Assembly (NCBI RefSeq): GCF_008642315.1
Contig: NZ_CP029192.1
Location: forward strand, 7,812,001-7,876,000
Direction: 5' to 3'
DNA length: 64,000 bases
DNA from: Streptomyces venezuelae
Lineage (GTDB): Bacteria; Actinomycetota; Actinomycetes; Streptomycetales; Streptomycetaceae
Part shown: positions 12,070-38,394 of the stretch, piece after piece
How positions within the stretch are numbered: position 1 is the first letter of the stretch
Layout of the letters: each line of letters starts with the position of its first letter
The notes under the pieces: model-generated
Told to the model about the DNA's origin: nothing
Seen by the model: only the letters and a program-made list of their open reading frames with translations
Database searches by the model: none
Translations under genes and position numbers: made by a program

Positions 12070-14271
12070 TCACTGCCCTCGCAGCGGCGCATGGTACTTC
12101 TCGAACACCCGGTAGAGCCCGAGCAGCGCGGTCCCGTACCCCTGTGCACTCTCGTCGGTGCCGTTGTAGCGGGCGAGGGCGCGCCTGCTGTCCTCCTCGC
12201 TCGTGTCGAGGCCGGGGCGTGCGGCGCCGACATCGTGGGCGCCCTCGATGAGGACCAGCGGGACGGTGCTCATGTTGTGGACCGTGTCGTCGTGGAGCCG
12301 TTGCCAGACGGCCCAGAGGTCGCTCTCCTTGGTGGCATCCATGATGGTCCCGGCGATCAGCCCCTGCCGGATGGCGTGGTTGCGGGAGCGGATCGCGGTC
12401 GCCGCGAAGATCTGGCCGGGCCCGGTGCTGCTGTCGTTCTTGGTGCTCGAACCGCCCGTGTAGTGGTCGATGACGAGTTCGTCGGCCAGCCCGTCGGCGG
12501 TGTTCATCGCCCGCAGCTCCCACATCAGCGGGCACTGGATCAGCGCTTTGCGCATCCGCAGGCTCCTGGCGAGCCGGGTGAGGAGCCAGTCGTGGTCCAT
12601 GAGGATGTCGAAGCACTTCGTCGTCGTCCGCACGCTGAACGCCAGGCCTCCGGTGCCGCCTTGTTCGGGCACTTTCATCACGTTCACGAAGTACGACTGG
12701 ACGTCCGCGAGCATCGCGTCGCGCTGGGCCTTGTCGAAGCTGACGTCGAGGCCGTCGTCGGACTGCCCCATGTCGTACTCGCCCTGGCCGTCGTCGCGGC
12801 CGGAGACGATGTTGTTGTCGATCTCGATCTCGCCGCTCCCGGAGCCGACCTTGACGGTGGCGATCTGGTCGAAGGCCCAGTCCTCCGGCAGCGGGTAGCC
12901 GAGGTTTCCGGAGAAGCCGGTCGACATTCCGCTGACGAAGCTCGCCGAGGTGAAACCGGCGGCACGGACGCGGCTGCACACGTTGCGGGGACCGTAGATG
13001 CCGACCTGGTACTCGGAGCCGTGCTCGCTCATCGTGTCCCTGACGGCACGGAAGTGCGGCAGAATCCGCTCCGCCACCTGCTGGTCGAGCGCGTCGAAGT
13101 CGACGGCGAAGTAGATGCGGGTGCCCGCCCGGTAGCCGTAGTGGCGTGCTCGTTCGATGGCGTGCAGGGCGTCGGCGATGCCGGTTGCCCTGCTGAAGTA
13201 GCTCGCCTCACCGCCGTTGGTCTGGTAGATCGGGAACGACCGCAGCCCGTTCGCGGCCATGACCCCCAACTCGCCGGGTCGGATCTGCTTGTTGAGCGTC
13301 GACCCCGCGTAGTTCGCCAGGTAGCGCCCCACGATGCGGTAGCCGGCGTTTCGCAGCGCCTGCGCCCGTGCCGCCGTGACCTCGGTGACGCAGTCGGACG
13401 CGGTTCCTCTGCGCGTGTGGTCCCCGGTGGACACCAGCAGGGAGGCCCAGGTCTGGAAGTCCCCCCGCCCGCTCACGGGCAGTTTCACGAAGTTCTGGAA
13501 CTCTTCGACCCGGTCGCCGAGCGAGGCGTCGAACCGGTCGGTGAACGCCGCCCCGGCACGCCGGTTGAAGACCATGGCCGCGCTGAACAGGCTCACCCAG
13601 GTGCCCGTCGAACCCTGCGCCACCGGATGGTTCCGCAGCCCGTCACGGGTCGCGGGTCCGAACGCCCCGGTCGCGACCGCGTCACTCATCCCCATCTCGA
13701 ACTGCAGGGCGTAGATCAGCGCTTTCTGAACGTCCCTGGAGAAGTTGCCGTCGCAGGGGATGACGAAGAAGTTCTGGCGACCGACGTACCGGCCGTTGAG
13801 CCACTGCTGGATGGTGCGGATCTGGTCGGTTCCGCCGGACACGACGGTGTACGCGTCCATCGTGAGCAGCGCCTTGAACACCTTCGGCGTGACCCCGTCC
13901 CCGGGATACACGCCGCTCACGCCCATGTTCTGCTTCACCCGGGTCACGGACGCCGCCACCCGCGGGTTGTAGGTGCCCTCGATGTCGCCGCCGTCATAGC
14001 CCTTGCAGTACAGGGCGGACTGCACGACCCGGCAGACGGCCTCGTGCCGGGTGTTCGCGTCGATGACCGGGAACCGGGACCGCAGGGCGGTGAGCGTGGC
14101 GGGGCCGAAGCTGTCGGAGAGCGGAGTGAGGCCCAGTTCGTGCTGGAGCACACGGGTCAGCGCGTGCATCACCGTCCAGCTGGTTCTGCCGTTCTCCTCG
14201 ACATCCGGAATCCCGTCGACGGCGTAGCTGTTGATGAACCTCTGCGCCTTCAGGACCATCTCGTCGGCCAT
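12070..14271 (-). CDS. DUF1906 glycoside-hydrolase-like protein with peptidoglycan-binding-like N terminus; no signal peptide
   Basis: The 733-residue protein has three parts. Residues 1 to about 285 contain helical repeats resembling peptidoglycan-binding modules, with AFGPATRDGLRNHP and FGPATLTALRSRFP as cognate motifs. Residues about 290-500 match the DUF1906 (Rv2525c-like, TIM-barrel, glycoside-hydrolase-like) domain, with RIVGRYLANYAG, RIYFAVDFDALD and YQVGIYGPRNVCSRV. Residues about 505-733 form a helical domain I do not recognise. The N terminus, MADEMVLKAQRFINS, has no Sec or Tat signal, although DUF1906 relatives are often exported. ATG 14271 follows GGGGG. The protein may use non-classical export or act inside the cell. 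Confidence 0.82.
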   Translation of the reverse strand: MADEMVLKAQRFINSYAVDGIPDVEENGRTSWTVMHALTRVLQHELGLTPLSDSFGPATLTALRSRFPVIDANTRHEAVCRVVQSALYCKGYDGGDIEGTYNPRVAASVTRVKQNMGVSGVYPGDGVTPKVFKALLTMDAYTVVSGGTDQIRTIQQWLNGRYVGRQNFFVIPCDGNFSRDVQKALIYALQFEMGMSDAVATGAFGPATRDGLRNHPVAQGSTGTWVSLFSAAMVFNRRAGAAFTDRFDASLGDRVEEFQNFVKLPVSGRGDFQTWASLLVSTGDHTRRGTASDCVTEVTAARAQALRNAGYRIVGRYLANYAGSTLNKQIRPGELGVMAANGLRSFPIYQTNGGEASYFSRATGIADALHAIERARHYGYRAGTRIYFAVDFDALDQQVAERILPHFRAVRDTMSEHGSEYQVGIYGPRNVCSRVRAAGFTSASFVSGMSTGFSGNLGYPLPEDWAFDQIATVKVGSGSGEIEIDNNIVSGRDDGQGEYDMGQSDDGLDVSFDKAQRDAMLADVQSYFVNVMKVPEQGGTGGLAFSVRTTTKCFDILMDHDWLLTRLARSLRMRKALIQCPLMWELRAMNTADGLADELVIDHYTGGSSTKNDSSTGPGQIFAATAIRSRNHAIRQGLIAGTIMDATKESDLWAVWQRLHDDTVHNMSTVPLVLIEGAHDVGAARPGLDTSEEDSRRALARYNGTDESAQGYGTALLGLYRVFEKYHAPLRGQ

Positions 14272-24917: not shown

Positions 24918-25754
24918 ATGCGGATAGGTGTGAACGTCCCCAACTTCGGGCCGGGGACGCACCCGGAGCACCTCGCCCGTTGGGCCGAGACCGTGGAGGG
25001 CCTCGGCTTTGAACTCCTGATGATGTCCGACCACGTGGCGGTCACCCCCGACGTGGCCGAGCAGTACCCCGCGCCGTTCTACGAACCGTTCACCACCCTC
25101 GCCTGGATGGCGGGCATCACCACCGGGGTACAGCTGGGCACGACCGTGCTCATCACCCCCTACCGGCACCCCCTCCTCGTCGCCCGCATGGCCGCCAACC
25201 TCCACCAACTCAGCGGCGGGCGGCTGATACTCGGGGTCGGGGTCGGCTGGGCACGCAAGGAGTTCGAGGCGCTCGGCGTCCCCTTCGAGCGGCGCGGCGC
25301 GCTGACCGACGCACACCTGCGGACACTGCGCACCGCGTGGCGGAACGACGCCGACTACCGCTCCGGACAGATCCCGCTCTGGATCGGCGGGAACAGCGAC
25401 GCGGCCATGCGCAGGGCGCTGCGTTTCGACGCCCCCTGGCATCCGCTGCGGTTCACGATGCCCTGGTTCAGGGAGGCACTGGTGCGGCTGAAGGGAATAT
25501 CGGCCCGGCTCGAAAGGCCCGTACCGGGTCTCGCGCCGCGCATCCGCCTGCGGCTCACCGGGAAACCGGTCGACGGCCCGGACCGCCGCGCCGGAGAAGG
25601 CACTCTCGAGCAGCTCCTGGAGGACCTGGAGGAGCTGCGTCTGGCGGGCGCCGACACCGTGCTGCTCGACCCGTACCACGGAGATCCGGACGAGACCTTG
25701 CGGCCCGAGAAGGCCTGGCAGGCGCTGGCCGTCGTGGCCGCGCACCGGACGTGA
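24918..25754 (+). CDS. LLM class F420-dependent oxidoreductase (TIGR03619-like)
   Basis: A 278-residue luciferase-like TIM-barrel enzyme: MRIGVNVPNFGP at the N terminus, FELLMMSDHVAVTP, GVQLGTTVLITPYRHPLLVAR, LGVGVGWARKEFEALGVP and LWIGGNSDAAMRRALRF in the expected order. Such proteins transfer hydride using reduced F420 or FMN. ATG 24918 is seven bases below a TAGGGT -10-like hexamer (24905-24910), so the message is probably leaderless. The deaminase gene follows 70 bases later across a run of 9-bp repeats. Confidence 0.9.
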   Translation: MRIGVNVPNFGPGTHPEHLARWAETVEGLGFELLMMSDHVAVTPDVAEQYPAPFYEPFTTLAWMAGITTGVQLGTTVLITPYRHPLLVARMAANLHQLSGGRLILGVGVGWARKEFEALGVPFERRGALTDAHLRTLRTAWRNDADYRSGQIPLWIGGNSDAAMRRALRFDAPWHPLRFTMPWFREALVRLKGISARLERPVPGLAPRIRLRLTGKPVDGPDRRAGEGTLEQLLEDLEELRLAGADTVLLDPYHGDPDETLRPEKAWQALAVVAAHRT

Positions 25755-25816
25755 CGGGTATAACGAATATAACGGATGCAACAGACATCGCGGATGTTAC
25801 GGACGTGACGGAAAGG
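25745..25816. repeat. Eight degenerate 9-bp tandem repeats between two genes
   Basis: From 25745 the sequence divides into consecutive 9-mers: CCGGACGTG, ACGGGTATA, ACGAATATA, ACGGATGCA, ACAGACATC, GCGGATGTT, ACGGACGTG and ACGGAAAGG. The run covers the stop codon of the LLM gene and reaches the ribosome-binding site of the deaminase gene. In one frame it would encode tripeptides of the form D-x-T, like the repeat tail of the MFS protein at 3.0 kb. Confidence 0.7.
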
Positions 25817-25824
25817 AAGCCACA

Positions 25825-26328
25825 GTGGTGATGCCTCACGACCGCGACCTGCCCCACCTGCGCCGCTGCATCGAGCTGGCGGCCGAGGCGCTGGACGCGG
25901 GCGACTTGCCGTTCGGGTCCGTGCTCGTCGACGCGGACGGCGCGGTCAGGGCCGAGGACCGCAACCGCGAGTCCACCACCGGCGACCCGACGGCCCACCC
26001 GGAGCTCGCCCTCGCCCGCTGGGCGGCGACCCGTCTGACCCCCGCGGAACGCGCCGCGGCGACGGTGTACACCTCGGGGGAGCACTGCCCCATGTGCGCC
26101 GCCGCGCACGGCTGGGTCGGCCTCGGCCGCATCGTGTACGCGAGCTCGTCCCGGCAGGCCCGCGAGTGGAAGGCCGAGTGGGGCGTGCCCGCCACCTCGC
26201 CCTTGAGCCCGCTGACCATCCAGGACGTCGTGCCTGGCCTGGACGTCGCCGGGCCGTTCCCCGAACTGTCCGACGAGGTACGCGAGTTGCAGTGGCGCTA
26301 CCGCAAAGGGCGGGCCGGGACCGACTGA
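25825..26328 (+). CDS. Nucleoside deaminase (CDA/tRNA-adenosine-deaminase-like fold)
   Basis: A 167-residue zinc deaminase. The active-site segments are TAHPELALARWA (HxE, with Pro between His and Glu instead of the more usual Ala) and SGEHCPMCAAAH (CxxC zinc pair). Catalysis would deaminate a purine or pyrimidine base or nucleoside; guanine or cytosine-type substrates are both possible. GTG 25825 is selected because AAGGA lies eight bases upstream; ATG 25831 is six bases further in. It is probably co-transcribed with the LLM oxidoreductase. Confidence 0.9.
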   Translation: MVMPHDRDLPHLRRCIELAAEALDAGDLPFGSVLVDADGAVRAEDRNRESTTGDPTAHPELALARWAATRLTPAERAAATVYTSGEHCPMCAAAHGWVGLGRIVYASSSRQAREWKAEWGVPATSPLSPLTIQDVVPGLDVAGPFPELSDEVRELQWRYRKGRAGTD

Positions 26329-26359
26329 CGCCGGCCCCGGCCCACTCGATGCCGCCGCC

Positions 26360-26812
26360 TCAGACCATGAACTGGTCGTACTTGGCCATGTGTTCCCGCA
26401 GCTCCTCCATGCTGGGGTTGCGCCCGTTGGCGGTCAGCCGACCGAGGCCCCGGAAGTAGTCCTCGCGGTCGTAGATCGGGTAGAACATGATCAACAGGGT
26501 GGCGTCCTCGGTGCCCCGGTTGGTGAAGCCGTGCGGCTCGCCCCTGGGGACGTACGCGAACGCGCCCGGCTCACCGACCACCTTGCGGTCGCCGATGGTG
26601 AACTCGATCTCACCCTTGACCACGTAGAACATCTCGGTGGACTGCTTGTGGATGTGCGGGGCCGCGCCCTTCGCCTCCGGAGCCATGTGGTGCTCGAAGA
26701 AGCCGAACTCCCCGTTGGAATCGGGCGTGGTGAGCTTCAGATACGTCCTCTTCGTGTCCCGGATGTCGACGTACTCACCTTCACCTGCGGGGACGTACAG
26801 CGGAACGGACAT
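26360..26812 (-). CDS. Cupin domain protein, last gene of the NRPS operon
   Basis: A 150-residue single-cupin protein. Motif 1 is PHIHKQSTEMFYVVKGEIEF and motif 2 is PRGEPHGFTNRG, giving a two-His, Glu and His metal site. Cupins of this form are found as isomerases, dioxygenases or regulators of secondary metabolism, so the role is open. ATG 26812 has GGAGGGA eight bases upstream and begins 15 bases after the MFS gene, which makes it the sixth gene of the minus-strand operon. It converges on the deaminase gene with a 31-bp gap. Confidence 0.88.
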   Translation of the reverse strand: MSVPLYVPAGEGEYVDIRDTKRTYLKLTTPDSNGEFGFFEHHMAPEAKGAAPHIHKQSTEMFYVVKGEIEFTIGDRKVVGEPGAFAYVPRGEPHGFTNRGTEDATLLIMFYPIYDREDYFRGLGRLTANGRNPSMEELREHMAKYDQFMV

Positions 26813-26827
26813 TGATCCCTCCAAGGG

Positions 26828-28087
26828 TCACGGGCTGATGGATTGCGGAAGTTGCGGGGTCATCGAGGCGCGGGCCTGCGCCCACCGGCCGATGACCGGC
26901 GCGGCGAGGCCGCAGACGGCGAACAGCGCGGCAAGCACGGCCCACCCGGTGGTGCCCGCCGTGATGACCAGGCCGACCACGAGCGGTGCCGCGATCTGCT
27001 GGACGGCCACGCCGAGCCAGAAGACCGACAGATAGACGCCTTCCTGGCCGGGCGCCGCCAGCAGATACGAACCGCCCCAGCCGCCGGCGGACTGGAACAG
27101 CTCGCCCGCGGTCAGCGCGACCATGGCGAGGAGCAGCACGCCGACCGCCACGAGGACGGGCGGCTTCGGCGCCGCGATCAGGAGCAGACAGCAGACGGCG
27201 AGGGCGATGCCCGCCCGCACCAGCGCCCGCGCGGACCCGGCGATGGTCTCGGTGCCGCGGCTCGCGCGGACCTGAAGCGCCACCGCGAGCACGGTGTTGA
27301 CCGCCACGAGGGGCGAGATCACCGCGGCCGGGGCCTCGGTGTGTTCGACGATCCACAGCGGGACGCCGATGCTCAGCAGCGTCATGTGCATCGTGAGCAC
27401 CGCGTTGATCCCGGTGAACGACAGGAACGGCCCGTCCCGCAGCGCGTCGGCGGAGAAGCGGCGGCGCAGGCTCTTCGCCGGGGTGCCGAGCACCGGCAGC
27501 CGGTGGGCGAGGAGCGCGAGCACGGCGAACGAGACGGCGTTGAGCAGGAGGATCGCGGCGTAGCCCGCCCGGGTGTCGATGAGCAGCCCGACACCGCCCA
27601 GCAGGGCGCCGACGGTGAAGCCGACATTGCGCAGCGACCGCAGCACCGCGACGACCCTGACCCGGTCGTCGGTCGCCGTAACCTGCCCCACCAGGGCCTG
27701 TTCCATCGGCGCCGCGGCCTTGTCGACGAGGCCGAGCAGGCACACCACCGTCAGGAACTGCCACAGGTTCTGGACGAACGGGTAGAGGACGAAGCAGCCG
27801 CAGCGCCACAGGCTGACGCCGACCAGCACCTTCTTCGGGCCGATCCGGTCGGCGAGGATGCCGATGGGGACGGCGGTGGCCAGCGCGATCGTGGCGGACA
27901 GGGTCAGGCCGAGACTCAGCTCGCCCACGGAGAGCCCGACGGACCGCGTGATGAACGGTACGGAGACGGCCAGGAAGGCGCCCGTGCCGACGGCGTCGAT
28001 CATCGCCATCACGGACAGCCGCAGGCCGACCCGTCCGCCCGGGACGGACCTCGGCCATCCCCGGACGCGCTGCCAGAGAACAGACAT
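26828..28087 (-). CDS. MFS transporter of the NRPS/ATP-grasp operon
   Basis: A 419-residue membrane protein with about 12 hydrophobic segments and the MFS signature GILADRIGPKKVLVG in the loop between helices 2 and 3. VDKAAAPMEQALVGQVTATDDRVR forms a cytoplasmic loop. The start ATG 28087 is 8 bases after the stop of the tandem ATP-grasp gene, so co-transcription is likely. Its position in a biosynthetic operon suggests export of the product or self-protection; import of a precursor cannot be excluded. Confidence 0.92.
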   Translation of the reverse strand: MSVLWQRVRGWPRSVPGGRVGLRLSVMAMIDAVGTGAFLAVSVPFITRSVGLSVGELSLGLTLSATIALATAVPIGILADRIGPKKVLVGVSLWRCGCFVLYPFVQNLWQFLTVVCLLGLVDKAAAPMEQALVGQVTATDDRVRVVAVLRSLRNVGFTVGALLGGVGLLIDTRAGYAAILLLNAVSFAVLALLAHRLPVLGTPAKSLRRRFSADALRDGPFLSFTGINAVLTMHMTLLSIGVPLWIVEHTEAPAAVISPLVAVNTVLAVALQVRASRGTETIAGSARALVRAGIALAVCCLLLIAAPKPPVLVAVGVLLLAMVALTAGELFQSAGGWGGSYLLAAPGQEGVYLSVFWLGVAVQQIAAPLVVGLVITAGTTGWAVLAALFAVCGLAAPVIGRWAQARASMTPQLPQSISP

Positions 28088-28095
28088 CTGCTTCC

Positions 28096-30627
28096 TCACT
28101 CCGTGGTGATGTGGATGGCCGCGTCCGCGTCCAGGACGCGTCGGCGTGCGCTGTACGCGTCGGGTCCTGTCGCGATCACGTGTCCGGCGCGGTCCCACGA
28201 GGACGCCCACGGCCGGACCTCCTGCCCGGCCTCGACGTCGATCTCCACCGTCTCCACGCCGGGCAGTGCCCGCGCCGCGTCCGTCCCGTCGACCGCCGTG
28301 ACGGTGCCGGGTTCGGCGGCGAGGAACCGGATGGCCGAGGTGAGCCGGGCGGTACGGGGGAGGGTGACCGGACGGCCGGCGAGCAGGTCGATGAGGGCCA
28401 GCCTGATCCGCGTGCCGTACGCCAGGTCGTTCAGGTCGATCAGATAGTCGCCGGGGCAGCGTCCCGCGCACTCCACCAGCGCGGGGCCGGACGCGGTCAG
28501 GATCCACTCGGCGTGCAGGATCCCGGTGTCGTACCCGGTCGCCGCGACCAGGGCCCGCATGGCCGCCTCGAACGCGTCCCGGGTGTCCCGGTCGAGCGGA
28601 GCGGGCAGGAGGTGGCCGATCTCCACCGGGTACGGTCCCGGGATCACCGTCTTGGCGGTGACGTTGTGGAAGATGATCTCGCCCTGCCGCACCAGTGCCT
28701 CGACGCTGTACTCGGGCCCGCGCAGGCGCTCCTCGGCGAGGAAGCGCCACGTCATCCGCCGGTCGGGCACCTGCTCGTACTCGGCGGCGCGGGACGTGCG
28801 CTCCCACGCCCGCGCCGCGCCGTCCGCGTCGACGGAGTCGAGGAGCTGTACGCCGACGCTGGCCTGCCGGTTGGCCGGCTTGACCACGACGGGGCTCTCG
28901 CCCGCGAAGGCGAGGATGTCCTCGGGCCCGTGCACCTCGCGCCAGCGCGGACCGCGGACACCGCCCGCGTCGCACACCTCCCGCAGCCGGACCTTGTCCC
29001 GCAGCGCCTGCGCGGCGGGTTCCGTCGCGCCCGGCAGCCCGAGCTTCTCGGCCAGCGCGGCCGCCGCCGGCACCGCGTACTCCAGGCCCGGCACGACCGC
29101 CGCCACCGGGCGTTCGGCCGCCAGATCGGCCGCCAGGTCCAGGGCCCCGGCCGACTGCTGGTAGTGCGCGGGCACGATCCGGTCGAGGCAGCCGAAGCGG
29201 CTCGCCGCGTCCCGCAGTCCCCGCTTGCGGATGATGTCGGGCTCTTCGAGCACGACGACACAACCGTCGGGAACACTCCCGTCGATGGCGCGCAGGTAGG
29301 CCGCGTTGTAGCCGACGAACACGACCTGCGCGTCGGTGCCGGGGGCGGCAGGTGCCCCCTCGGCCCGGCCGTCCGCACGGACCGGCGTCCCGTCGATGAC
29401 GACCTCCAGGGTGGCGAGCGCCTCCGCCAGCCGGGCCCGGGTCTGCCCGGGTGTGGAGCCGGAGACGATGACGTGCCCTTGGCGCGCCTTGGAGTCACGC
29501 ACCTCCCCGACGGTGTCGCCCGGACGCAGTCGGAGCGTCAACTCATCCACGTACGGCAGCCGTTGCAGCCTCTCCAGGCCGCGGATCGCGTCGACGCGTC
29601 CCGGCGGGAAGGTGAAGAACCGCACGGCGGCCGTCGCCGTCGGCTCCGGCACCTCGGCCGGCGCGCCCGCCAGGCCCGCGAAGACCGCCCGCTCCATGTC
29701 GAGTCCCGCGGCCAGCTCGACGAGGCGCGGGATGCGGTCGCCGCCGAGCCGGGCCTGCGACTCGACGATGCGCGGCCCCCGCTCGGTCCAGATCACCTCG
29801 GTGTGCGCGGGCCCGAACCGGTACCCGCACACCGTCAGGAAGCGGACCGCCAGCTCCTCGACGGCCCTCCTGCGATCCGCCGGCAGCGGCGCGGGATGGA
29901 CGTGCCCCACCTCCACGAACAGCGGCGGCGGCCCCAGCACCTTCTCGGTGACGCCGACGACCCGGTGCACGCCGTCCTGGCTCAGCGTCTCCACGCTGTA
30001 CTCGGGGCCGCGCAGATACTCCTCGACCAGGAAAGGACCGTCATAGCCGTACGTGTCCACGAGCGTCGTCCACGCCGCCCGGTCCCGCGGCTCACGCCAC
30101 AGGAACACGCCCCGGCTGCCCGCGAGCGCGACCGGTTTGACCACCGCGGGAAGGCCGATCCGGTCGACGGCGGCCGGCACCTCGTGCCGCGTCGGCGCCG
30201 ACTCGTAGGCCACCGGCGACAGTTCGCGCCGCGCGAGCAGCTCGCGCATCGCGTGCTTGTCGGAGAGGCAGCGGATCGCCGTGACCGGATTGACCTCGGC
30301 ACGCAGCTCCTCGGCCACCTCGTGGGCCGTCACCATCGTCTCCTCCCTGCCGAGGTGGAGGATCACCGACGCGCGGTGTTCCGTGGCCACGTCGCGCAGG
30401 GTGCGCCGCAGCAGCTCCCGGTCACGGAAGTCCACCGTCACGAACAGGTCGGCGGCGGCGCGGACGTCGTCGAGGTAGCCGGGCGTCTCCAGACGCGGAT
30501 CCCAGATCGCGCCGACCCAGAACCCTTCGGCCCGTGCCTTGCGCACGAACTGGCGGTAGGGCATCACCATCAGCAGGCGAGGCCGGTCGCCGGTGTGCCA
30601 GCTCGACAGCGGCAAAGGAGCAGTCAT
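28096..30627 (-). CDS. Tandem ATP-grasp ligase (two modules)
   Basis: The 843-residue protein repeats one architecture twice. Module 1 (about 1-410) has LPAVVKPVALAGSRGVFLW, VEEYLRGPEYSVETL and IVESQARLGGDRIPRLVELA. Module 2 (about 430-843) has SPVVVKPANRQASVGVQLL, AEERLRGPEYSVEAL and LVECAGRCPGDYLIDL. These are the nucleotide-binding Lys, the E-L-x-G-P-E-Y-S-V strand and the metal-binding acidic segment of ATP-grasp carboxylate-amine ligases such as BacD-type L-amino-acid ligases. Each module would activate a carboxylate as an acyl phosphate and couple it to an amine. The start overlaps the preceding gene's stop by 4 bases, implying translational coupling. Confidence 0.92.
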   Translation of the reverse strand: MTAPLPLSSWHTGDRPRLLMVMPYRQFVRKARAEGFWVGAIWDPRLETPGYLDDVRAAADLFVTVDFRDRELLRRTLRDVATEHRASVILHLGREETMVTAHEVAEELRAEVNPVTAIRCLSDKHAMRELLARRELSPVAYESAPTRHEVPAAVDRIGLPAVVKPVALAGSRGVFLWREPRDRAAWTTLVDTYGYDGPFLVEEYLRGPEYSVETLSQDGVHRVVGVTEKVLGPPPLFVEVGHVHPAPLPADRRRAVEELAVRFLTVCGYRFGPAHTEVIWTERGPRIVESQARLGGDRIPRLVELAAGLDMERAVFAGLAGAPAEVPEPTATAAVRFFTFPPGRVDAIRGLERLQRLPYVDELTLRLRPGDTVGEVRDSKARQGHVIVSGSTPGQTRARLAEALATLEVVIDGTPVRADGRAEGAPAAPGTDAQVVFVGYNAAYLRAIDGSVPDGCVVVLEEPDIIRKRGLRDAASRFGCLDRIVPAHYQQSAGALDLAADLAAERPVAAVVPGLEYAVPAAAALAEKLGLPGATEPAAQALRDKVRLREVCDAGGVRGPRWREVHGPEDILAFAGESPVVVKPANRQASVGVQLLDSVDADGAARAWERTSRAAEYEQVPDRRMTWRFLAEERLRGPEYSVEALVRQGEIIFHNVTAKTVIPGPYPVEIGHLLPAPLDRDTRDAFEAAMRALVAATGYDTGILHAEWILTASGPALVECAGRCPGDYLIDLNDLAYGTRIRLALIDLLAGRPVTLPRTARLTSAIRFLAAEPGTVTAVDGTDAARALPGVETVEIDVEAGQEVRPWASSWDRAGHVIATGPDAYSARRRVLDADAAIHITTE

Positions 30628-32840
30628 CGGGCACCGCCCGCGGTGTTCTCGTGGGCGAGCAGGCTGAGGTAGCGCTCGCCGGTGTCGGGCAGCAGCGTCA
30701 CGATGCGCCGGCCCCGGTACTCGGGGCGGGCGGCGAGCACGCCCGACGCGTGGACGACCGCGCCGCCCGAGACACCGGCCATCAGACCGGCGTGCAGGGC
30801 GAGCCGCCGGGTGGTGTCCAGGGCGTCCGCGTCGGACACCGTGATCACCTCGTCGATGAGGCTCTGCTGCGTGGTCGGCGCGATGAAGCCGCCGTTGAAG
30901 CCCGGGATGCCGTGCGCGCCGGGCTCACCGCCGGACAGCAGCGGCGAGCCCGCCGGCTCCACCGCCACGATCCGCACAGCGGGATGACTCTCGCGGAGAT
31001 AACGCCCCGCGCCACTGAGCGTACCGCCGGTTCCCACTCCGCAGACGAACACGTCGACGCGTCCGCCGACGTCGCTCCAGATCTCGGGGCCCGTGGTCTC
31101 GTAGTGCGCCCGAGTGTTGTCCGGGTTGTCGTGCTGGCGGCAGAACCACGAGCCCGGCGTCCGCCGGTGGAGCTCCTCCGCCCTGTCGACCGCCGCCCGG
31201 TAGCCGTCGGAGTGCGGGCTGCGCACCACTTCGGCGCCCAGCGACCGGAGCATCGACACACGCTCCGGCGTCGCGTTGTCCGGCAGCACGATGACGCAGC
31301 GGTAACCGCGGTCCGCGGCCAGAGCGGCCAGCGAGATGCCGGTGTTGCCGGAGGTCGCCTCGATCACGGTGCCGGAACCCGGCACGAGCAGCCCCTGCTT
31401 CTCGGCGCCCCGCAGCATCGCGAGGGCGGCCCGGTCCTTGCTGCTCGACCAGGGGTTGAACAGCTCCAGCTTCGCGAGCACCTCGGCGTCCGCCGGGGCG
31501 CCGTCGACGATCCGGTCCACCGGCAGCCTCAGCAGCGGCGTGCCGCCGATGAGGTCGACGAGGGAGTCCGCGACCGGACGCCGGGAGACCGGCTCGGTGC
31601 GGATCCCGATCTCCTGGACGGCCGCCTCCGCGGTGCGCGCCGCCAGTTCGGCCGTCTCGGCCACCACGAGCACATGGCCGGCGCGGTCGCCGTTGCGCCT
31701 CAACTCCCGTGCAACGGCACCCGGTGTGGGCTTGACGACGACTTCCTCGACGCCCGGGAGCGCGGCGGCGCGCTCCCGGCCTGTGACCGACACCACCCGG
31801 CCGGGCTGCGCCGTCAGATAGCGGATCGCCGCGCCCCCGACCGGATTTCGCGGCAGCACCGGGTCGGGCAGCGGCTGGCCGAGGTACTGGCGTGCCACCA
31901 GCTCCAGGGACTTGATGCCGAGGGCCCGGTCGACCAGGTAGGTGATCTTCCCACCGGCCGGCCGCGGGTTGATCTCCACGAGCTTGGGCCCGGACGCCGT
32001 CAGCTTCACTTCGACATGGGCCATGCCCAGGTCGAAACCGACCGCCCGCAGCGCCTGCACGGCCAGGTCGCCGCAGGCACGCACGAGCGGCTCCGGCAGC
32101 CGGGACGGGAAGGTGTGGGCCAGCTCGACGAAGTAGCCGAGGCCGACGACCGACTTGTCGGTCACCCCGAACACCTCGTACCGGTCGCCGTCGGCGAGCA
32201 CCTCCACGCTGACCTCGGGGCCGCTCATGTACTCCTCGACCATCAGCTCGTCGTGGCGGGCCTGGCCGCGGGTGTTCTCCGCGCGGGACCGGATCAGGGC
32301 GACGTGCTCGGCGGCCTGCTCCGGGGTGTCCACGAGGCGTACGTCCGCGCTGCTGGTCTCGTCGGCCGGCTTCACCACACAGGGCAGGCCGACCTCGGCC
32401 GCGGCCGCCGCCGCCTCGCCGGGTGTCCGTACGGTGCGGAACGCCGGTATGGGAACGCCGAGTTCGGCGCAGCGGCGGCGCATCAGCGCCTTGTTGCGCG
32501 CGGTGGCGACACCGTCGACGCTGACCGTGGGGAGCCCGAGGTGGACCGCCACCTCGGCGGCCACGACCACGTCGTACTCGGCCAGGGTGAGGAACGCGTC
32601 GAAGGGCTGCTCGGCCCCGGCGGCGTGCACGTGCGGCAGGAGCTCCTCGAAGACGTTCGTCTCGCACCGGACGATGTCGTCGACGTAACGGTCGAAGTAG
32701 GCGGGCCCGCCCGGGACGTCGAGGTAGCGCTCCAGATCGCGGGTGAAGAAGGTGACGCGGCAGTCGAGTTCCTTGATGATCTGCAGGCCCTCGAAGCCGG
32801 AACCGGAGAGATTGCTCTCCAGGACTCCGACGTGGATCAT
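30624..32840 (-). CDS. ATP-grasp ligase fused to a PLP-dependent cysteine-synthase-like domain
   Basis: A 738-residue two-enzyme fusion. Residues 1 to about 410 are an ATP-grasp ligase: LPCVVKPADETSSADVRLV, VEEYMSGPEVSVEVL and KLVEINPRPAGGKITYLV (Glu289, Asn291). Residues about 422-738 are a fold-type II PLP enzyme of the cysteine synthase group: SLVDLIGGTPLLRLP, the PLP Lys468 in NPWSSSKDRAA, the substrate loop EATSGNTG (494-501) and the phosphate loop GVGTGGT. The PLP half would replace the acetyl group of O-acetylserine, supplied by the adjacent SAT, with a nucleophile; the ligase half could couple the product directly. The gene begins 70 bases after the SAT stop. Confidence 0.94.
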   Translation of the reverse strand: MIHVGVLESNLSGSGFEGLQIIKELDCRVTFFTRDLERYLDVPGGPAYFDRYVDDIVRCETNVFEELLPHVHAAGAEQPFDAFLTLAEYDVVVAAEVAVHLGLPTVSVDGVATARNKALMRRRCAELGVPIPAFRTVRTPGEAAAAAAEVGLPCVVKPADETSSADVRLVDTPEQAAEHVALIRSRAENTRGQARHDELMVEEYMSGPEVSVEVLADGDRYEVFGVTDKSVVGLGYFVELAHTFPSRLPEPLVRACGDLAVQALRAVGFDLGMAHVEVKLTASGPKLVEINPRPAGGKITYLVDRALGIKSLELVARQYLGQPLPDPVLPRNPVGGAAIRYLTAQPGRVVSVTGRERAAALPGVEEVVVKPTPGAVARELRRNGDRAGHVLVVAETAELAARTAEAAVQEIGIRTEPVSRRPVADSLVDLIGGTPLLRLPVDRIVDGAPADAEVLAKLELFNPWSSSKDRAALAMLRGAEKQGLLVPGSGTVIEATSGNTGISLAALAADRGYRCVIVLPDNATPERVSMLRSLGAEVVRSPHSDGYRAAVDRAEELHRRTPGSWFCRQHDNPDNTRAHYETTGPEIWSDVGGRVDVFVCGVGTGGTLSGAGRYLRESHPAVRIVAVEPAGSPLLSGGEPGAHGIPGFNGGFIAPTTQQSLIDEVITVSDADALDTTRRLALHAGLMAGVSGGAVVHASGVLAARPEYRGRRIVTLLPDTGERYLSLLAHENTAGGAR

Positions 32841-32910
32841 TCTGTGCCTCCGTTGGCAAACCGGCTCGCGGCCGGGGACGAATTCGTTGATGTACGGGAC
32901 GGGCGGGCCG

Positions 32911-33519
32911 TCACCAGCAACCCGCGGTGGCCAGGGTGCGGAGCAGCTGCTCCGACTCGGCGCGCTCCGCGGCCGACAGCGGTACGGTGACCGCGGCCAC
33001 GGGGGCGGCCACCCGGGCCCCGGGCGGCACGTCGCCCAGGACCAGCGAACCGGCGCCGATCAGCGCGTCGTCGCCGACGGTGACCGGACCGAGGACGATC
33101 GCGTTGGTGCCGATCACCACCCGGTCGCCGACGACGGGGTGCCGCCGGGCGCCCGGCGGCCGCCGCCCGTCCCGCCACCAGCCGACCGCGCCCAGCGTGA
33201 CCTGGTGGAAGATCGTGACGTCGTCGCCGATCTCGACGGTCTCCCCGATGACGACGGCGGCTCCGTGGTCGATGAACACGCGCCGGCCGAGCCGGGCGCC
33301 CGGATGGATCTCGATGCCGCCGGTCGCCGCCCGGGCCACGTAGGCGATGAAGCGGGCGAGTTGACGCCGTCGGCGGGTGTGGAGGGCGTGCGCCGCCCGG
33401 TGGGCCCACAGGGCCGGCAGAGCGGGGTGCAGCAGCGCCTGCGCACGTGTGTGGATCGACGGGTCCCGCTCCACGATCATGGAGAGGTCCTCCCGCGCCC
33501 TGGTGATTGCCTCGCGCAT
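32911..33519 (-). CDS. Serine O-acetyltransferase (CysE-like)
   Basis: A 202-residue left-handed beta-helix acetyltransferase. It has the hexapeptide-repeat core GIEIHPGARLGRRVFIDHGA with the catalytic-type Asp84-His85, VIGETVEIGDDVTIFHQVT and PVVGDRVVIGTNAIVLG. It is the short form, with a reduced N-terminal helical part, as in many Gram-positive CysE proteins. Expected reaction: L-serine plus acetyl-CoA to O-acetylserine. ATG 33519 lies 13 bases after the NRPS stop and immediately upstream of the cysteine-synthase fusion, so it probably supplies a dedicated O-acetylserine pool rather than housekeeping cysteine. Confidence 0.93.
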   Translation of the reverse strand: MREAITRAREDLSMIVERDPSIHTRAQALLHPALPALWAHRAAHALHTRRRRQLARFIAYVARAATGGIEIHPGARLGRRVFIDHGAAVVIGETVEIGDDVTIFHQVTLGAVGWWRDGRRPPGARRHPVVGDRVVIGTNAIVLGPVTVGDDALIGAGSLVLGDVPPGARVAAPVAAVTVPLSAAERAESEQLLRTLATAGCW

Positions 33520-33532
33520 GGGATCAGCCGCC

Positions 33533-33757
33533 TCAGTAGTCCGGACTCTTGACGAGATGGCCCGGGTCTTCGACGATCTCCGGGATGTAGACCCGCTCGT
33601 TCCACACGTCCTGCGCGACGGGCTCCAGGGCGATGGACACCACCCCCTCGTCGACGGAGAACGCGGTCCTGACCGCGCTCGTGATCGCGTCCACGAGGGC
33701 CGATAACTGGGCCTCTTCGAGGTTGTTCGGGAAGTGCTTGATGTTGACGTGGGGCAC
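33533..33757 (-). CDS. Possible separately translated tautomerase nested in the NRPS 3' end
   Basis: An in-frame GTG at 33757 would start a 74-residue protein beginning M-P-H-V-N-I-K, the size and start of free-standing PptA/4-oxalocrotonate tautomerases. A GAAAGG at 33766-33771 (coding direction) lies eight bases upstream, a credible ribosome-binding site. These enzymes need an N-terminal Pro as catalytic base, exposed after Met removal. In the full NRPS this Pro is internal (residue 1307) and could not act in that way, so internal initiation or proteolysis would explain how an active form arises. The alternative is a non-catalytic or folding role in the fusion. Confidence 0.45.
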   Translation of the reverse strand: MPHVNIKHFPNNLEEAQLSALVDAITSAVRTAFSVDEGVVSIALEPVAQDVWNERVYIPEIVEDPGHLVKSPDY

Positions 33758-36700
33758 CGGGATGACCTTTCGGGTGAGTCGTGCGGCGCGGAGGGCGGTG
33801 ACGAGTTCGTCCACCCCGTGCGCGCGCAGCAGTGCGTAGTGGTCGGCCCGCAACCGGTTGATCCGGGGAGGCGCGGTCGACAGCGCGGGGCCGTGGCGGC
33901 GGCCGGGTCCGTGTCCGTGGTCGATGAAGGAGTCCTGGTCACCGGCGGCCCGGAACACGGTGACCGGCGCGGTGACCCGGTGCCCCGTCATGTCCTCGGG
34001 CCCGTACTCGAACAGGTACGTCAGCCGCACCACGGCGACGATCCTGCGCACCAGCTCGCGGTCCAGATGCTCGAACCGGTCGCAGAGGCACGCGACGAAG
34101 GACTCCTCGTCGTGGGTCGACGCCAGGCATTCGGCGATCGCGGACCGCTGGATGTTCCCGGCGAAAACGGAGTAGAGAATGGCGACGAAGGCGGGGTCGG
34201 TGAAGTCGACCGACGCCCCCGTGGGCGCACCGTCCCGTGCCTCCACGGTCTCCACGGGCGGCTTGCCGGGCGCCAGGAGGATCACCTCGTCGACGCGCTC
34301 CCCGGCCTGTTCCAGCTGCCGGGCCACCGCGAAGGCGACCCGGGCCCCGAAGGAGTAACCCCACAGCGTGTACGGTCCCTTCGGCTGCGCCTGCCGGATG
34401 AGCTCGATGTCCTTCGCGACCATCTCGTCGAACGTCGGGTACGCGCGCTCGCCCGGGTTGATGCCGTACGCCTGGACGCCGAGGAACGGCCGCGCGAGGC
34501 CGAGCCTGCCGGCCAGCAGCCGCAGACTCATGGGGTAGCCGCCGAGGCCGGGCCAGCAGAACACCGGCCGCCCGTCGTCCGGGCCGCCGAGCCGCACCAG
34601 ACGGGACAGCGCGGTGGTGGGCGTACGGTCGACGAGCCGCGCGAGACCAGCGACGGTCGGCGCGTCGAACAGCACCTGGAGCGGCAGGGAACTGCCCAGC
34701 TCCCGGTTGATCCGGCCGACCAGGTTGACGGCGGTCAGCGAATGGCCGCCGATGGCGAAGAAGTTGTCCCGGATCGAGACCCGCTCCTGTCGCAGCACCT
34801 CGCGCCACAGCGCGGCGACCGCCTCCTCGGTGGGCGTGCGCGGCGGTACGACCGGTGCGTCGGCGTCGTCGACGGCTGCCTGGTCCAGCTCGCGCAGGGC
34901 CTGGTGGTCGATCTTGCCGTTGGGGGTGAGCGGGAAGGAGTCGAGGACGGTGACGCGGTTGGGCACCATGTACGGAGGCAGGGTCTCGGCGAGGTTCTCC
35001 TTGAGGATCTCGGCGGGACCCCGCATATGCACGGCGTCCTCCTTCATGCCCTCGCTGAGCCGCTGCTCCTCGCTGACCCGGCCGCCCACGGCGAAATAGG
35101 AGGCCGTTTCGGCGCGGGGTGCGGAGTTCGCACCGCCGGATTCGGATGCGAGGAGAGCCGTGATGCGCCGGGCCGATGCCAGCGGGTGGCCGGTCTCCGA
35201 GCTGTAGCCGGAGGACATGAGCCCCAGGCCGATGTCGTTCATCTGGAGGCGCTGCAGCTCCCGGCCGAGGTCGGCGTAGCGCTGCCAGGGCGCCGCGGCC
35301 CGCCCGATCATGCTGACCCCGAAGCTGGACCGTGCGTAGACCTCCTGGTTGATGGCGATGACGTCCTGCTTGCGGATCAGCGCATCGGAGATCCGCACCA
35401 AATCCCCGTCGCGGTACCGGTACTGGCCCTCGGCGAGATCGGCGATCCGGCCGGGGTGCGCCTGCACGTACACGTCGACGGGGCGGGGCGCGGCCGGCGC
35501 GGCGGCCGTCTCCACCTCGTACGTGCCCAGGTAGAGGTCCTCGTCCGGGCAGCGCAGCACGTCCTTGACGCCGGGTTCGTCCGCGCGGGCGTCGACGCGC
35601 AGCCCGCACTCGGGGAGCACGTGGTCGAACAGCCCGACCATGTGCCCCGCCTCGAACCCCAGCACCTCCCGGATGTTGTTCCGGTAGACCGGCTCGATGG
35701 CGGACCGGCGCCCGACGAAGTGGACCCGCATCCTGGGCGCGGTCCCGGTGGTGGCGGGCGCGGACGCGGGGGCGATCGGCGTGAGGTGGTGGCCGACCGG
35801 GTGGTAGTAGTAGTGGCCCGCCTCCAGGCCGGCGATGCCGGACAGTTCCAGGTAGAGCTGGGTGGCGTAGAGGGAGCCGGGGGAGGCGTAGCCGTACTTG
35901 GGCAGGAGGCGTTCGCCGCTGGGGAACTGTCCGAAGTGGCGCAGCAGGGCACCGAGTTCGTCCAGGGCCAGGGTGGCCGGGTCGCGGGGTGCGGCGGTTC
36001 CCTCGGCCGGCGGGGTGAGCAGGGCAAGGAGGTCGTCGCGGGTGACGGGGCCGCCCTCGTAGAAGCGGTACGTCTTGCGGGCGAACACGGTGCGGCGCTG
36101 CCGGACCGTCGCGGCCCGCCCCGGTAACTCCACGACGGACCGGCCCACGTCCTCGCGCACTCCCAAGTTTCCCAGCTGAGCCTTGAGTTGAAGTTTGCTC
36201 CGCTTGGACTGATGGTGGGCGCCGTGGTTGCCCTGGTCCATCAACGCGGCGCGTTCGGGGTCGAGTTCCACGAAGGCGACGAGGTTGGCGCCGGTCCGCG
36301 GGTCTTCGCGGACCAGCACGGCGGCGGACTTCACCCAGTCGTGCTTCTCGACGGACACCTTGATCTCGTCGAGCTCGACCCGGAAGCCGCGCAGCTTGAC
36401 CTGGCTGTCGGTGCGGCCGAGGAACTGCACGGTGCCGTCCGCGTTCCACCGGGCCAGGTCTCCGGTGCGGTAGAGACGGGTGGCGCGGGCCGCCCCACCA
36501 CCGGTGACGAACCGGTCCGCGGTCAGTTCGGGGTTGTTCAGGTAGCCGCGGGCCAACTGGGGCCCCGCTATGTACAGTTCACCGGACTCGCCCGACGCGA
36601 CCGGCCGACGATCGGCGTCGAGGACATGGAAGCGCATCCCGCGCACGGGCCGCCCGATGGGCAGATGCTCCGGAGCGTGCCGGAGGGCGTGCCGGTCCAC

Positions 36701-37672
36701 ACGGTGGGAGGAGGCGTTGATGGTGCACTCGCTCGGGCCGTACAGATTGACGAGGTCGCAGCCGGGCAGCGCGTCGAGGAGCTCGGTCGCCAGACTCCTG
36801 GTGAGCGCCTCGCCGCCGCTGAAGACCTGGGAGAGCGAGGTGCAGTCGGCGAGCCGGCCGGTGTCGGCGAGTGCCTGCAACAGGGTCGGCACGCCCTGGA
36901 GGGTGGTCACACCGTTGGCAAGGATCAGGTCGACGAGTCCGCCCGGGTCGGCGTAGACCCCCGGTTCGCTCATCACGACGCGAGCGCCGCAGGCCGGGGC
37001 GAGGATCTCCCACTGCGCGGCGTCGAAGCTCAGCGGCGTCTTCTGCAGCACGGTCTTCGTCCGGTCGAGCCCCTGCTCGTCGGCCAGCCAGCGCATCTGG
37101 TGGACGATGCTGTGGTGCTCGATCCCGATGCCCTTGGGATGGCCCGTGCTTCCGGAGGTGTAGATGACGTACGCCAGGTCATCACCCCGCACGCGAGACC
37201 GTGCCGGCTCCACGGGATTCCATGCCTGCGTGGCGGCGTGCACCTCGGCGGCGCCCTCCTCCCCGGCGAGGGTGAGGATCCGCGTCTCCGGTGGAGCCAG
37301 GGCCGCCAACCGGTCGGACAGGGAGGCGTCCGTCAGGACGACCCTGGTCCGTGAGTCCGTGACCATGTAACGCACGCGCTCGTCGGGATACTCGGGCGAC
37401 AGCGGAAGATAGGCGGCGCCCGCGCGCAGCACGCCCCAGACGCTCACCATGAGGTCGACGGACGGCGGCAGGAAGATGCCGACGGGTTCATCCGCCGCGA
37501 CGCCCGCGTGCCGCAGGCGTTCCGCCAGATTCCCGCTCCGCTCGCCGAGCTGCTGAAAGGTCAGTCTGTCCGCGCCGCAGGAGACGGCGGTCCTGTCGGG
37601 CTGGGCGAGAACGGCCGCGCGCAGCATGTCTGGCAGGGAAAATTCGTGGGGCCCCGTGGGGTTCGTCATCAT
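33533..37672 (-). CDS. Indigoidine-synthetase-like NRPS (A-Ox-T-TE) with C-terminal tautomerase domain
   Basis: A 1379-residue single-module synthetase. Adenylation domain: about 20-460 plus 890-925, with YTSGSTGHPKG, LVNLYGPSECT, YRTGDLARW and Lys920 in TPNGKID. An FMN-type oxidase/dehydrogenase domain (about 470-870) is inserted between A8 and A10, as in BpsA/IndC, including MDQGNHGAHH and FARKTYRFYEGG. Carrier domain: about 945-1010, Ser978 in IGGHSL. Thioesterase: about 1035-1290, Ser1107 in GYSFGAR, His1278. A PptA-like tautomerase (about 1306-1379) is added, beyond the roughly 1280 residues of BpsA. The pocket reads D217, A218, W221, Q259, V283, S285, L310, I318, N319, compatible with the glutamine use of this class. 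ATG 37672 is chosen; 37669 is in frame. Confidence 0.93.
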   Translation of the reverse strand: MMTNPTGPHEFSLPDMLRAAVLAQPDRTAVSCGADRLTFQQLGERSGNLAERLRHAGVAADEPVGIFLPPSVDLMVSVWGVLRAGAAYLPLSPEYPDERVRYMVTDSRTRVVLTDASLSDRLAALAPPETRILTLAGEEGAAEVHAATQAWNPVEPARSRVRGDDLAYVIYTSGSTGHPKGIGIEHHSIVHQMRWLADEQGLDRTKTVLQKTPLSFDAAQWEILAPACGARVVMSEPGVYADPGGLVDLILANGVTTLQGVPTLLQALADTGRLADCTSLSQVFSGGEALTRSLATELLDALPGCDLVNLYGPSECTINASSHRVDRHALRHAPEHLPIGRPVRGMRFHVLDADRRPVASGESGELYIAGPQLARGYLNNPELTADRFVTGGGAARATRLYRTGDLARWNADGTVQFLGRTDSQVKLRGFRVELDEIKVSVEKHDWVKSAAVLVREDPRTGANLVAFVELDPERAALMDQGNHGAHHQSKRSKLQLKAQLGNLGVREDVGRSVVELPGRAATVRQRRTVFARKTYRFYEGGPVTRDDLLALLTPPAEGTAAPRDPATLALDELGALLRHFGQFPSGERLLPKYGYASPGSLYATQLYLELSGIAGLEAGHYYYHPVGHHLTPIAPASAPATTGTAPRMRVHFVGRRSAIEPVYRNNIREVLGFEAGHMVGLFDHVLPECGLRVDARADEPGVKDVLRCPDEDLYLGTYEVETAAAPAAPRPVDVYVQAHPGRIADLAEGQYRYRDGDLVRISDALIRKQDVIAINQEVYARSSFGVSMIGRAAAPWQRYADLGRELQRLQMNDIGLGLMSSGYSSETGHPLASARRITALLASESGGANSAPRAETASYFAVGGRVSEEQRLSEGMKEDAVHMRGPAEILKENLAETLPPYMVPNRVTVLDSFPLTPNGKIDHQALRELDQAAVDDADAPVVPPRTPTEEAVAALWREVLRQERVSIRDNFFAIGGHSLTAVNLVGRINRELGSSLPLQVLFDAPTVAGLARLVDRTPTTALSRLVRLGGPDDGRPVFCWPGLGGYPMSLRLLAGRLGLARPFLGVQAYGINPGERAYPTFDEMVAKDIELIRQAQPKGPYTLWGYSFGARVAFAVARQLEQAGERVDEVILLAPGKPPVETVEARDGAPTGASVDFTDPAFVAILYSVFAGNIQRSAIAECLASTHDEESFVACLCDRFEHLDRELVRRIVAVVRLTYLFEYGPEDMTGHRVTAPVTVFRAAGDQDSFIDHGHGPGRRHGPALSTAPPRINRLRADHYALLRAHGVDELVTALRAARLTRKVIPVPHVNIKHFPNNLEEAQLSALVDAITSAVRTAFSVDEGVVSIALEPVAQDVWNERVYIPEIVEDPGHLVKSPDY

Positions 37673-38394
37673 TCTCTGACCTGAAATCCGTAGAATTTTG
37701 GGATACGTCATTGCAGAGATTCGCCGACGGTCGACGACCATCGCGGCGCAAGAGCAGCCGAAACAGGCTGAAAAATGGAAAGGGCGCGACGAAACGCGAT
37801 TACGGGTGCTTGCCCACGTGGATTTCGTCTCGACCGAAATGCGCTGAAGTGCGCGTCAAGCGCGTGCCGTGCATGTCAGGCAGTACGGGGTGTGACATGC
37901 GGACGAGCGGCCGCCTGCGGTGAAGGCCCAGAGGGCTCAGCAGCGGGAACCGGTGTGCCGAATCGCCTCAAGGAATTTCACGTACATGCCTTTACACTCT
38001 CCCCGTTTTGACTGATCGGCTTGCGATCGAGCGGTACGGATCAAAGGATCCGACATCGAATTCCTGATACCGGCAAGCCGTCTCTAGTTGAGCGCTCACC
38101 TTAATTCCTGGGAACGCCGCTTGTAAAACACTAATTTCGATGCATTACTCAGGAGATGGCCTGACTGCATGACTTGGGGGCGCTCGATCGGCATCCGGTT
38201 GTGCCGCGTGACGGCATGCGGGCGCACGCGTGCTGGCGAAACGGGCGTCCGCTTTACAGCCGCCGCGTTCCGGCAAGGGTCGGCCAGTTGGCCGGATATG
38301 GGGGTTGACGTAACGCCCGGCGCGATGGCCTCGGGTCACTTCCCGCTCAGGACGCGGCAAGGGGCAACAGGACGCGCAGGCGTACGGCCCTTGC
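37673..38394. other. Gene-free region upstream of the NRPS operon (about 720 bp)
   Basis: The region is poorer in GC than its neighbours, especially around 37960-38150, and I see no open frame with convincing codon bias. It must contain the promoter of the NRPS operon. It holds AATT-rich patches (AGGAATT near 37971, GAATTCC near 38058), a perfect TGAGCGCTCA palindrome at 38089-38098 and a TTGACT hexamer at 38008-38013 on the plus strand without a clear -10. A transferred-island boundary or a lost regulator gene is possible but not shown. Confidence 0.5.
38089..38098. promoter_or_regulatory. TGAGCGCTCA palindrome (candidate operator) upstream of the NRPS operon
   Basis: The 10-bp palindrome is perfect, and the flanks extend it as AG-t-TGAGCGCTCA-c-CT. 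It is in the middle of the gene-free region, about 420 bases upstream of the NRPS start. It looks like a TetR- or GntR-type operator core, but there is no regulator gene adjacent. Confidence 0.45.

Follow-up and report, generated by a model that had tools for sequence, protein, structure and literature searches.

A conserved Streptomyces gene cluster proposed to make a β-(heteroaryl)alanine peptide, with a tautomerase probably started inside its NRPS gene

We propose that a gene cluster in the window (the whole stretch of 64,000 nucleotides of Streptomyces venezuelae DNA that was analysed) makes a small peptide, joined by ATP-grasp ligases, which bears an unusual β-(heteroaryl)alanine. In this proposal, to which we assign a probability of about 0.5, a CysK-like domain couples O-acetylserine to a ring and a tautomerase is translated from a start inside the gene of a non-ribosomal peptide synthetase (NRPS). 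A broader version is more tentative, and we would not bet on it: one gene would yield both the NRPS and a tautomerase with proline as its first residue; the CysK subfamily would make amino-acid counterparts of the C-nucleosides, with alanine in place of ribose, that are exported as peptides; and related clusters would swap the source of the ring while keeping tautomerase, SAT (serine O-acetyltransferase), CysK and often a cupin, as a general heteroaryl-alanine module. If true, the CysK proposal adds a way in which bacteria make amino acids that bear a ring, and it points to a widespread peptide family, of which we found no description. The initial annotation did not know the gene combination as a described pathway, and no paper describing it was found in the openly licensed literature.

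The features are collected in Table 1. The six operon genes, all on the minus strand, are separated by 13, 70, -4, 8 and 15 bases, and their places, strand, gaps and domains are confirmed by coordinates and profiles; for the Ox domain this rests on its location and on similarity. The NRPS gene has an additional in-frame ATG at 37741. By comparison with other loci, the conserved block is the eight genes from 24918 to 37672, because window genes outside these limits almost never recur in 18 other loci. The initial annotation was thus right that the six genes belong together but missed the convergent deaminase and LLM genes, whose opposite orientation means that they do not share a transcript with the operon.

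Table 1. Features of the conserved block (positions in the window)
Feature	Position	Strand	Basis
NRPS of the indigoidine/minimycin family, 1379 aa (A-Ox-T-TE plus a tautomerase at the C-terminus)	33533..37672	-	Pfam profiles and similarity
YdcE/PptA-type tautomerase, encoded in frame by the 3'-terminal part of the NRPS gene	33533..33757	-	YdcE alignment, PF01361
Putative own start of the tautomerase: GTG, next codon Pro (GTG-CCC)	33757-33755	-	sequence
Putative ribosome-binding site within the gene (CGAAAGG), 8 nt 5' of the GTG	33766..33772	-	anti-SD comparison
Serine O-acetyltransferase (SAT), CysE/EpsC type, 202 aa	32911..33519	-	NCBIfam profiles
ATP-grasp/CysK fusion gene	30624-32840	-	ATP-grasp_4, LAL_C2, PALP
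AG1, ATP-grasp and LAL_C2 part of the fusion protein	31581..32840	-	profiles
CysK-like PLP domain of the fusion protein	30624..31580	-	PALP profile, structure-relative search, loop comparison
Tandem ATP-grasp ligase AG2-AG3, LAL_C2 on each	28096..30627	-	profiles
MFS transporter, 419 aa, presumed exporter	26828..28087	-	MFS_1
Single-domain cupin	26360..26812	-	Cupin_2
Zinc deaminase, convergent with the cupin	25825..26328	+	profile, solved relatives
F420-type LLM oxidoreductase (TIGR03619), last gene of the conserved block, lying upstream of the deaminase	24918..25754	+	profile

Of the 18 other loci, 7 were retrieved with the tandem ATP-grasp protein as query and 11 with the fusion protein, so that both genes are present in 18/18 by selection; the sequence of one locus, L095, stops early, inside the tandem gene. 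Gene order, which the initial annotation had proposed to search for, holds across the 18. NRPS and SAT are present in all of them, the MFS gene in 17, and the cupin, deaminase and LLM oxidoreductase in the same 16; L098 lacks these three together in the 6 kb past its MFS gene. On the NRPS side, where about 1.5 to 5 kb were covered, genes of the window recur in 0/18 loci, and those past the LLM gene recur in at most one (L029). Four loci (L094, L101, L105 and L106) were left out of the counts as the same loci as L030, L034, L033 and L029, as were L108-L110, which carry distant PALP genes. The complete set occurs in 8/392 genomes of the genus, the present one counted; with the order kept in 18 loci, this argues that the gene set is not a chance assembly. 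Among the best 120 of 173 relatives of the fusion protein, 41 carry both ATP-grasp and PALP domains, including proteins of Streptomyces, Phytohabitans and Geodermatophilus.

The description of the NRPS as A-Ox-T-TE was correct as far as it went but missed a C-terminal tautomerase. The last 74 residues align to E. coli YdcE (residues 1-72 of 76, E 9.7e-7), and PF01361 (Tautomerase) scores 21.1 bits here, slightly below its cut-off of 22. The alignment to YdcE is nearly full length, but unlike the 4-OT/YdcE tautomerases this one is encoded in frame inside another gene. According to excerpts of one account, an N-terminal, catalytic proline is the hallmark of the tautomerase superfamily and a “mechanistic imperative” on experiments to date, with 346 members lacking Pro-1 (PMC5818174). 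Fusion to the C-terminus of the NRPS would hide this proline. NRPSs of this type with a tautomerase are already published, as excerpts of the sources show for MinA (PMC8724604) and indigoidine synthetases (PMC5818174, PMC12766979). Although tautomerases of this kind depend on an unblocked N-terminal proline, the literature places one at the C-terminal extremity of a large synthetase; if true, a conserved internal start would resolve the buried-proline puzzle for indigoidine and minimycin synthetases too. We found no mention of such a start in the openly licensed literature, a scope outside which the primary minimycin/oxazinomycin papers lie.

We sorted 78 NRPS loci into those with the tautomerase fused (28), those with it as a separate gene (21, or 20 further loci with L034 set aside) and those with none within 1.5 kb downstream (29). 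In all 28 fused loci the codon before the tautomerase proline is a possible start (ATG 4, GTG 22, TTG 2), and no stop separates the NRPS and tautomerase frames. At the protein level the preceding residue is V in 69, M in 16 and L in 2 of the 87 proteins found, and the residue one place earlier varies over ten letters. In the two fused loci with TTG, this codon accounts for 0.7% and 2.2% of the gene's Leu codons. Within the 18 fused genes of the window clade, 2 of 79 Val columns consist wholly of start codons, the tautomerase start among them. The codons upstream of the start in this clade are mostly AGA-AAG-G. The Shine-Dalgarno (SD)-like codon is AGA, GGA or CGA in 17/18 genes and the rare AGA (2% of Arg codons) in 12/18, and GAAAGG is retained in four genes in which Gly replaces Arg. 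Of 1277 full codon columns, 3 have A at the third position in 17 or all 18 of the genes, and the SD-like codon is one of the three. Since orthologues share ancestry, these conservation counts are not independent.

Pairing was scored first against the E. coli-type anti-SD, which gave no clear signal in the window clade (286/1093 other in-frame start-like codons pair at least as well, which is unremarkable; 28/576 in the ten other fused genes), and then against a Streptomyces version, which did (42/1093 and 13/576, respectively). The latter is the presumed 3' end of Streptomyces 16S rRNA, which we take to be the anti-SD of the host; it occurs at six places in the genome, presumably the 16S genes. 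L034, with an NRPS frame that breaks in TE, was left out of the Streptomyces anti-SD and codon-column tests. In a quick tree of 76 rows (L160 and G379 left out) the fused state has to change three times, once solely for L034, and the fused genes lie across several deep branches. The conserved start codon and SD-like motif, together with sister genes that carry the tautomerase separately, make it probable in our view that the tautomerase is made from an internal start.

Two observations concern individual loci. In L034, a member of the window clade, the TE and tautomerase frames differ near 13427-13517, and the tautomerase there would therefore need its own start, unless this is a sequencing error. 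L129 and L132, counted as having no tautomerase, have tautomerase-like matches near 15.2 kb on the NRPS strand, about 6.7 kb upstream of the TE region.

Pfam places AMP-binding at residues 42-401 of the NRPS, AMP-binding_C at 910-943, PP-binding at 974-1037 and Thioesterase from 1058. The Ox domain has no Pfam match and is assigned from the long stretch inserted between the two AMP-binding profiles (residues 401 to 910) and from matches in 62 other genomes of the genus; a large insertion before the C-terminal part of the A domain, followed by T and TE, is the layout of indigoidine- and minimycin-type NRPSs. Nine pocket letters of the A domain are identical in the window, in L113 and in 50 of the 59 loci scored, with the letters chosen by a pattern of our own, one of them beside the usual pocket place, and 19/78 loci unreadable. 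The pocket positions, and the reading of these letters as glutamine, are presumed. By these letters the A domain resembles that of the minimycin-type relative, L113, in agreement with the initial annotation. L113 itself looks like a minimycin-type cluster, with Indigoidine_A, HAD, questin-oxidase-like and UPRT genes after its NRPS; upstream it has weakly similar ATP-grasp and PALP genes (30% and 25%).

Excerpts of a review describe MinA as an A-Ox-T-TE-Tau synthetase that uses L-Gln, after which a partner enzyme takes the tautomer (PMC8724604). The minimycin (oxazinomycin) cluster, MinA-MinB-MinC-MinD-MinT, resembles the present one in that here too the NRPS has a C-terminal tautomerase domain. 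It differs in what follows, which here is SAT and CysK with no C-glycosynthase (Indigoidine_A family) gene near, and ATP-grasps, MFS and cupin are added. Among the indigoidine NRPSs, fused or discrete tautomerases are reported in Streptomyces and myxobacteria, in excerpts of two sources (PMC12766979, PMC5818174). Indigoidine clusters (BpsA/IndC) share the NRPS family, but here there is no Indigoidine_A nearby and SAT, CysK and ATP-grasps are present. The initial annotation had not seen the IndA partner, and indeed no Indigoidine_A gene lies near the cluster; the only match in the genome, at 6742705, is over 1 Mb away. MinC-type HAD/DUF4243 and UPRT are not among the eight cluster genes, which belong to other families.

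Profiles bear out the presence of a SAT and a PLP-dependent β-substitution enzyme. The SAT scores 174.7 bits with cysE (under the cut-off of 210.65) and 160.0 with EpsC (over the cut-off of 150). For the CysK domain, solved cysteine synthases score 302 bits against 226 for O-ureidoserine synthase (3x43); the best NCBIfam profiles among the matches listed are cysKM (334 bits) and cysK (331 bits), both somewhat below cut-off, and the related SbnA-type 2,3-diaminopropionate profile is lower at 224 bits. The domain retains the PLP lysine loop and the TSGNTG loop of cysteine synthases. Its nearest relatives outside its own clade have 60-68% identity, and other PALP genes, in seven genomes picked for having such a cluster, at most 48%; the subfamily differs from these other PALP enzymes of its hosts in the loops compared.

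At E<=1e-85 the CysK domain has a match in 52/392 genomes of the genus, or 48 without the copies of about 55-60% identity, which are the only ones in 4 of the 52; such second copies differ in the loops where aligned. In 20 of the 52 genomes a BpsA-type Ox match is found no more than about 15 kb from CysK. The NRPS gene has a fused or adjacent tautomerase in 16 of these 20 (the genome of L034 counted), and none was found in the other four (G289, G221, G158 and G023). In L114 and L120 the NRPS-tautomerase is accompanied by a transporter that looks EamA-like by eye, by SAT and by CysK, and then comes a questin-oxidase-like protein (Pfam) or a cupin; no ATP-grasp gene was found in the 16 kb read. 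The cupin directly after CysK in L120 is 42% identical to that of the window.

Of the 32 genomes in which CysK is not linked to Ox, 20 were fetched and the other 12 left out. Eleven of these 20 loci (L219-L224, L231, L232, L234, L236 and L237) have SAT-CysK-cupin, and the 10-19 kb read at each contained no BpsA-type NRPS; nine of the eleven also have a tautomerase that starts with proline. Across the 20, 11 have a tautomerase gene (a possible start codon, then Pro) at most about 8 kb from SAT-CysK, two of them confirmed by Pfam. The CysK subfamily is therefore independent of the NRPS monomer, the idea that it is tied solely to the NRPS is rejected, and the link of tautomerase, SAT and CysK is wider than the NRPS. 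L219 adds asparagine-synthase, PrpF, acyl-CoA-dehydrogenase and dihydroorotase-like genes; loci of its type perhaps use another ring source with the same coupling.

The confirmed three ATP-grasp modules, one in the fusion and two in the tandem protein, resemble amino-acid ligases. The fusion protein has one ATP-grasp_4 and one LAL_C2 stretch besides PALP, and the tandem protein two of each; whole-protein scores are over the Pfam cut-offs in both. ATP-grasp with LAL_C2 is shared with the L-amino-acid ligases BL00235, BacD and DdaF, although the sequence match is weak, and these differ in that here two ligases are joined in one protein and the third is joined to CysK. The fusion of AG1 to CysK suggests that AG1 takes the CysK product as substrate. 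The best solved relatives of the cupin are quercetin 2,3-dioxygenases, the closest structures to the deaminase are CMP/dCMP-like deaminases, and the LLM protein passes the cut-off of its F420 family; the roles we give these three are guesses.

In the proposed pathway, the NRPS would activate L-glutamine and, as its family suggests, oxidise and cyclise it to the aminopyridinedione monomer of the indigoidine and minimycin pathways. The tautomerase, translated from the internal GTG with a free N-terminal proline (a start site for which the comparative evidence is strong), would convert the monomer to the tautomer that, on the minimycin model, is used instead of the blue indigoidine dimer. SAT would supply O-acetylserine, and the CysK domain would exchange its acetate for the ring monomer, as the MinB C-glycosynthase attaches the monomer to ribose. 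We infer that the ring monomer is the CysK nucleophile, and propose use of the NRPS-tautomerase product mainly because SAT-CysK in L114 and L120 replaces the Indigoidine_A of L113. Modification of the ring might fall to the cupin, perhaps together with the deaminase and the LLM oxidoreductase; the three ATP-grasp domains would add amino acids and the MFS protein would export the peptide, as their families suggest.

The initial annotation inferred a product combining a β-substituted alanine with a glutamine-derived heterocycle. In its scheme the two parts are made apart, with CysK alone making cysteine, 2,3-diaminopropionate or a similar β-substituted alanine and the ATP-grasps joining on the NRPS heterocycle. 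We regard this as less probable than joining by CysK. It accords with the ranking of cysteine synthases and cysKM/cysK as best relatives and best listed profiles, with the (lower-scoring) kinship to SbnA-type enzymes at 224 bits, and with the occurrence of the subfamily without an NRPS. However, in L114 and L120 CysK stands beside the NRPS-tautomerase with no ATP-grasp found that could link the parts, which is why we favour joining by CysK; moreover, the tautomerase recurs beside SAT-CysK even where there is no NRPS, and the subfamily loops depart from those of the hosts' other PALP enzymes. Nor do we think it likely that the tautomerase functions solely as a fused NRPS domain, or is a vestige, with no internal start and with V/M/L a structural need. 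The frames are unbroken by a stop in 28 loci, the SD-like site of the window clade is moderate under the E. coli-type anti-SD, and a review, in the part cited, draws the MinA tautomerase as a synthetase domain (Tau) (PMC8724604). Against this stand the conserved start-codon and SD-like nucleotides, the separate tautomerase of relatives and the catalytic N-terminal proline given as the superfamily hallmark in the excerpts of PMC5818174.

That the NRPS merely makes indigoidine, with the peptide genes as unrelated neighbours, is very improbable. In architecture and pocket letters it conforms to the indigoidine/minimycin type, but NRPS and SAT adjoin the other genes in 18/18 other loci with mostly different flanks, and the NRPS lies within the same tight run of genes; we reject a plain indigoidine cluster on the conserved synteny and the lack of a nearby Indigoidine_A. 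SAT, CysK-like and ATP-grasp genes evoke the dcs set of D-cycloserine biosynthesis, a likeness the initial annotation had raised. It fails for the PLP enzyme, where O-ureidoserine synthase scores below the cysteine synthases; to our knowledge a Gln-type NRPS and a tautomerase are no part of that pathway, and we reject it on the CysK ranking as having almost no chance of being correct.

Some public entries bear on the fusion protein. P0138 (956 aa) has SAT, the AG1 ATP-grasp and CysK in one chain. P0115 (451 aa), the window's own sequence, starts inside the ATP-grasp part of the fusion gene, and several similar entries are without the ATP-grasp half; the shortened entries are probably errors of start-site annotation.

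Seven sister clusters (G316, G359, G379, G080, G092, G142 and G158) have a BpsA-type NRPS, CysK, MFS and several ATP-grasps. Their tautomerase is a separate gene in 6/7 and was not found in G158. They add chorismate mutase and prephenate dehydrogenase (read by eye) and an aminodeoxychorismate-synthase-like gene (by profile on the G316 copy). In G316 (L084, L085), nitrosuccinate lyase scores 793 bits against a cut-off of 650 and a diazotase-like ligase 350 bits against one of 975, which suggests p-aminophenylalanine and diazo chemistry in clusters of this type. The sister cluster in G112, larger than that of the window like the others, likewise combines a BpsA-type NRPS and ATP-grasps with these three added kinds of gene (chorismate mutase, prephenate dehydrogenase and aminodeoxychorismate-synthase-like).
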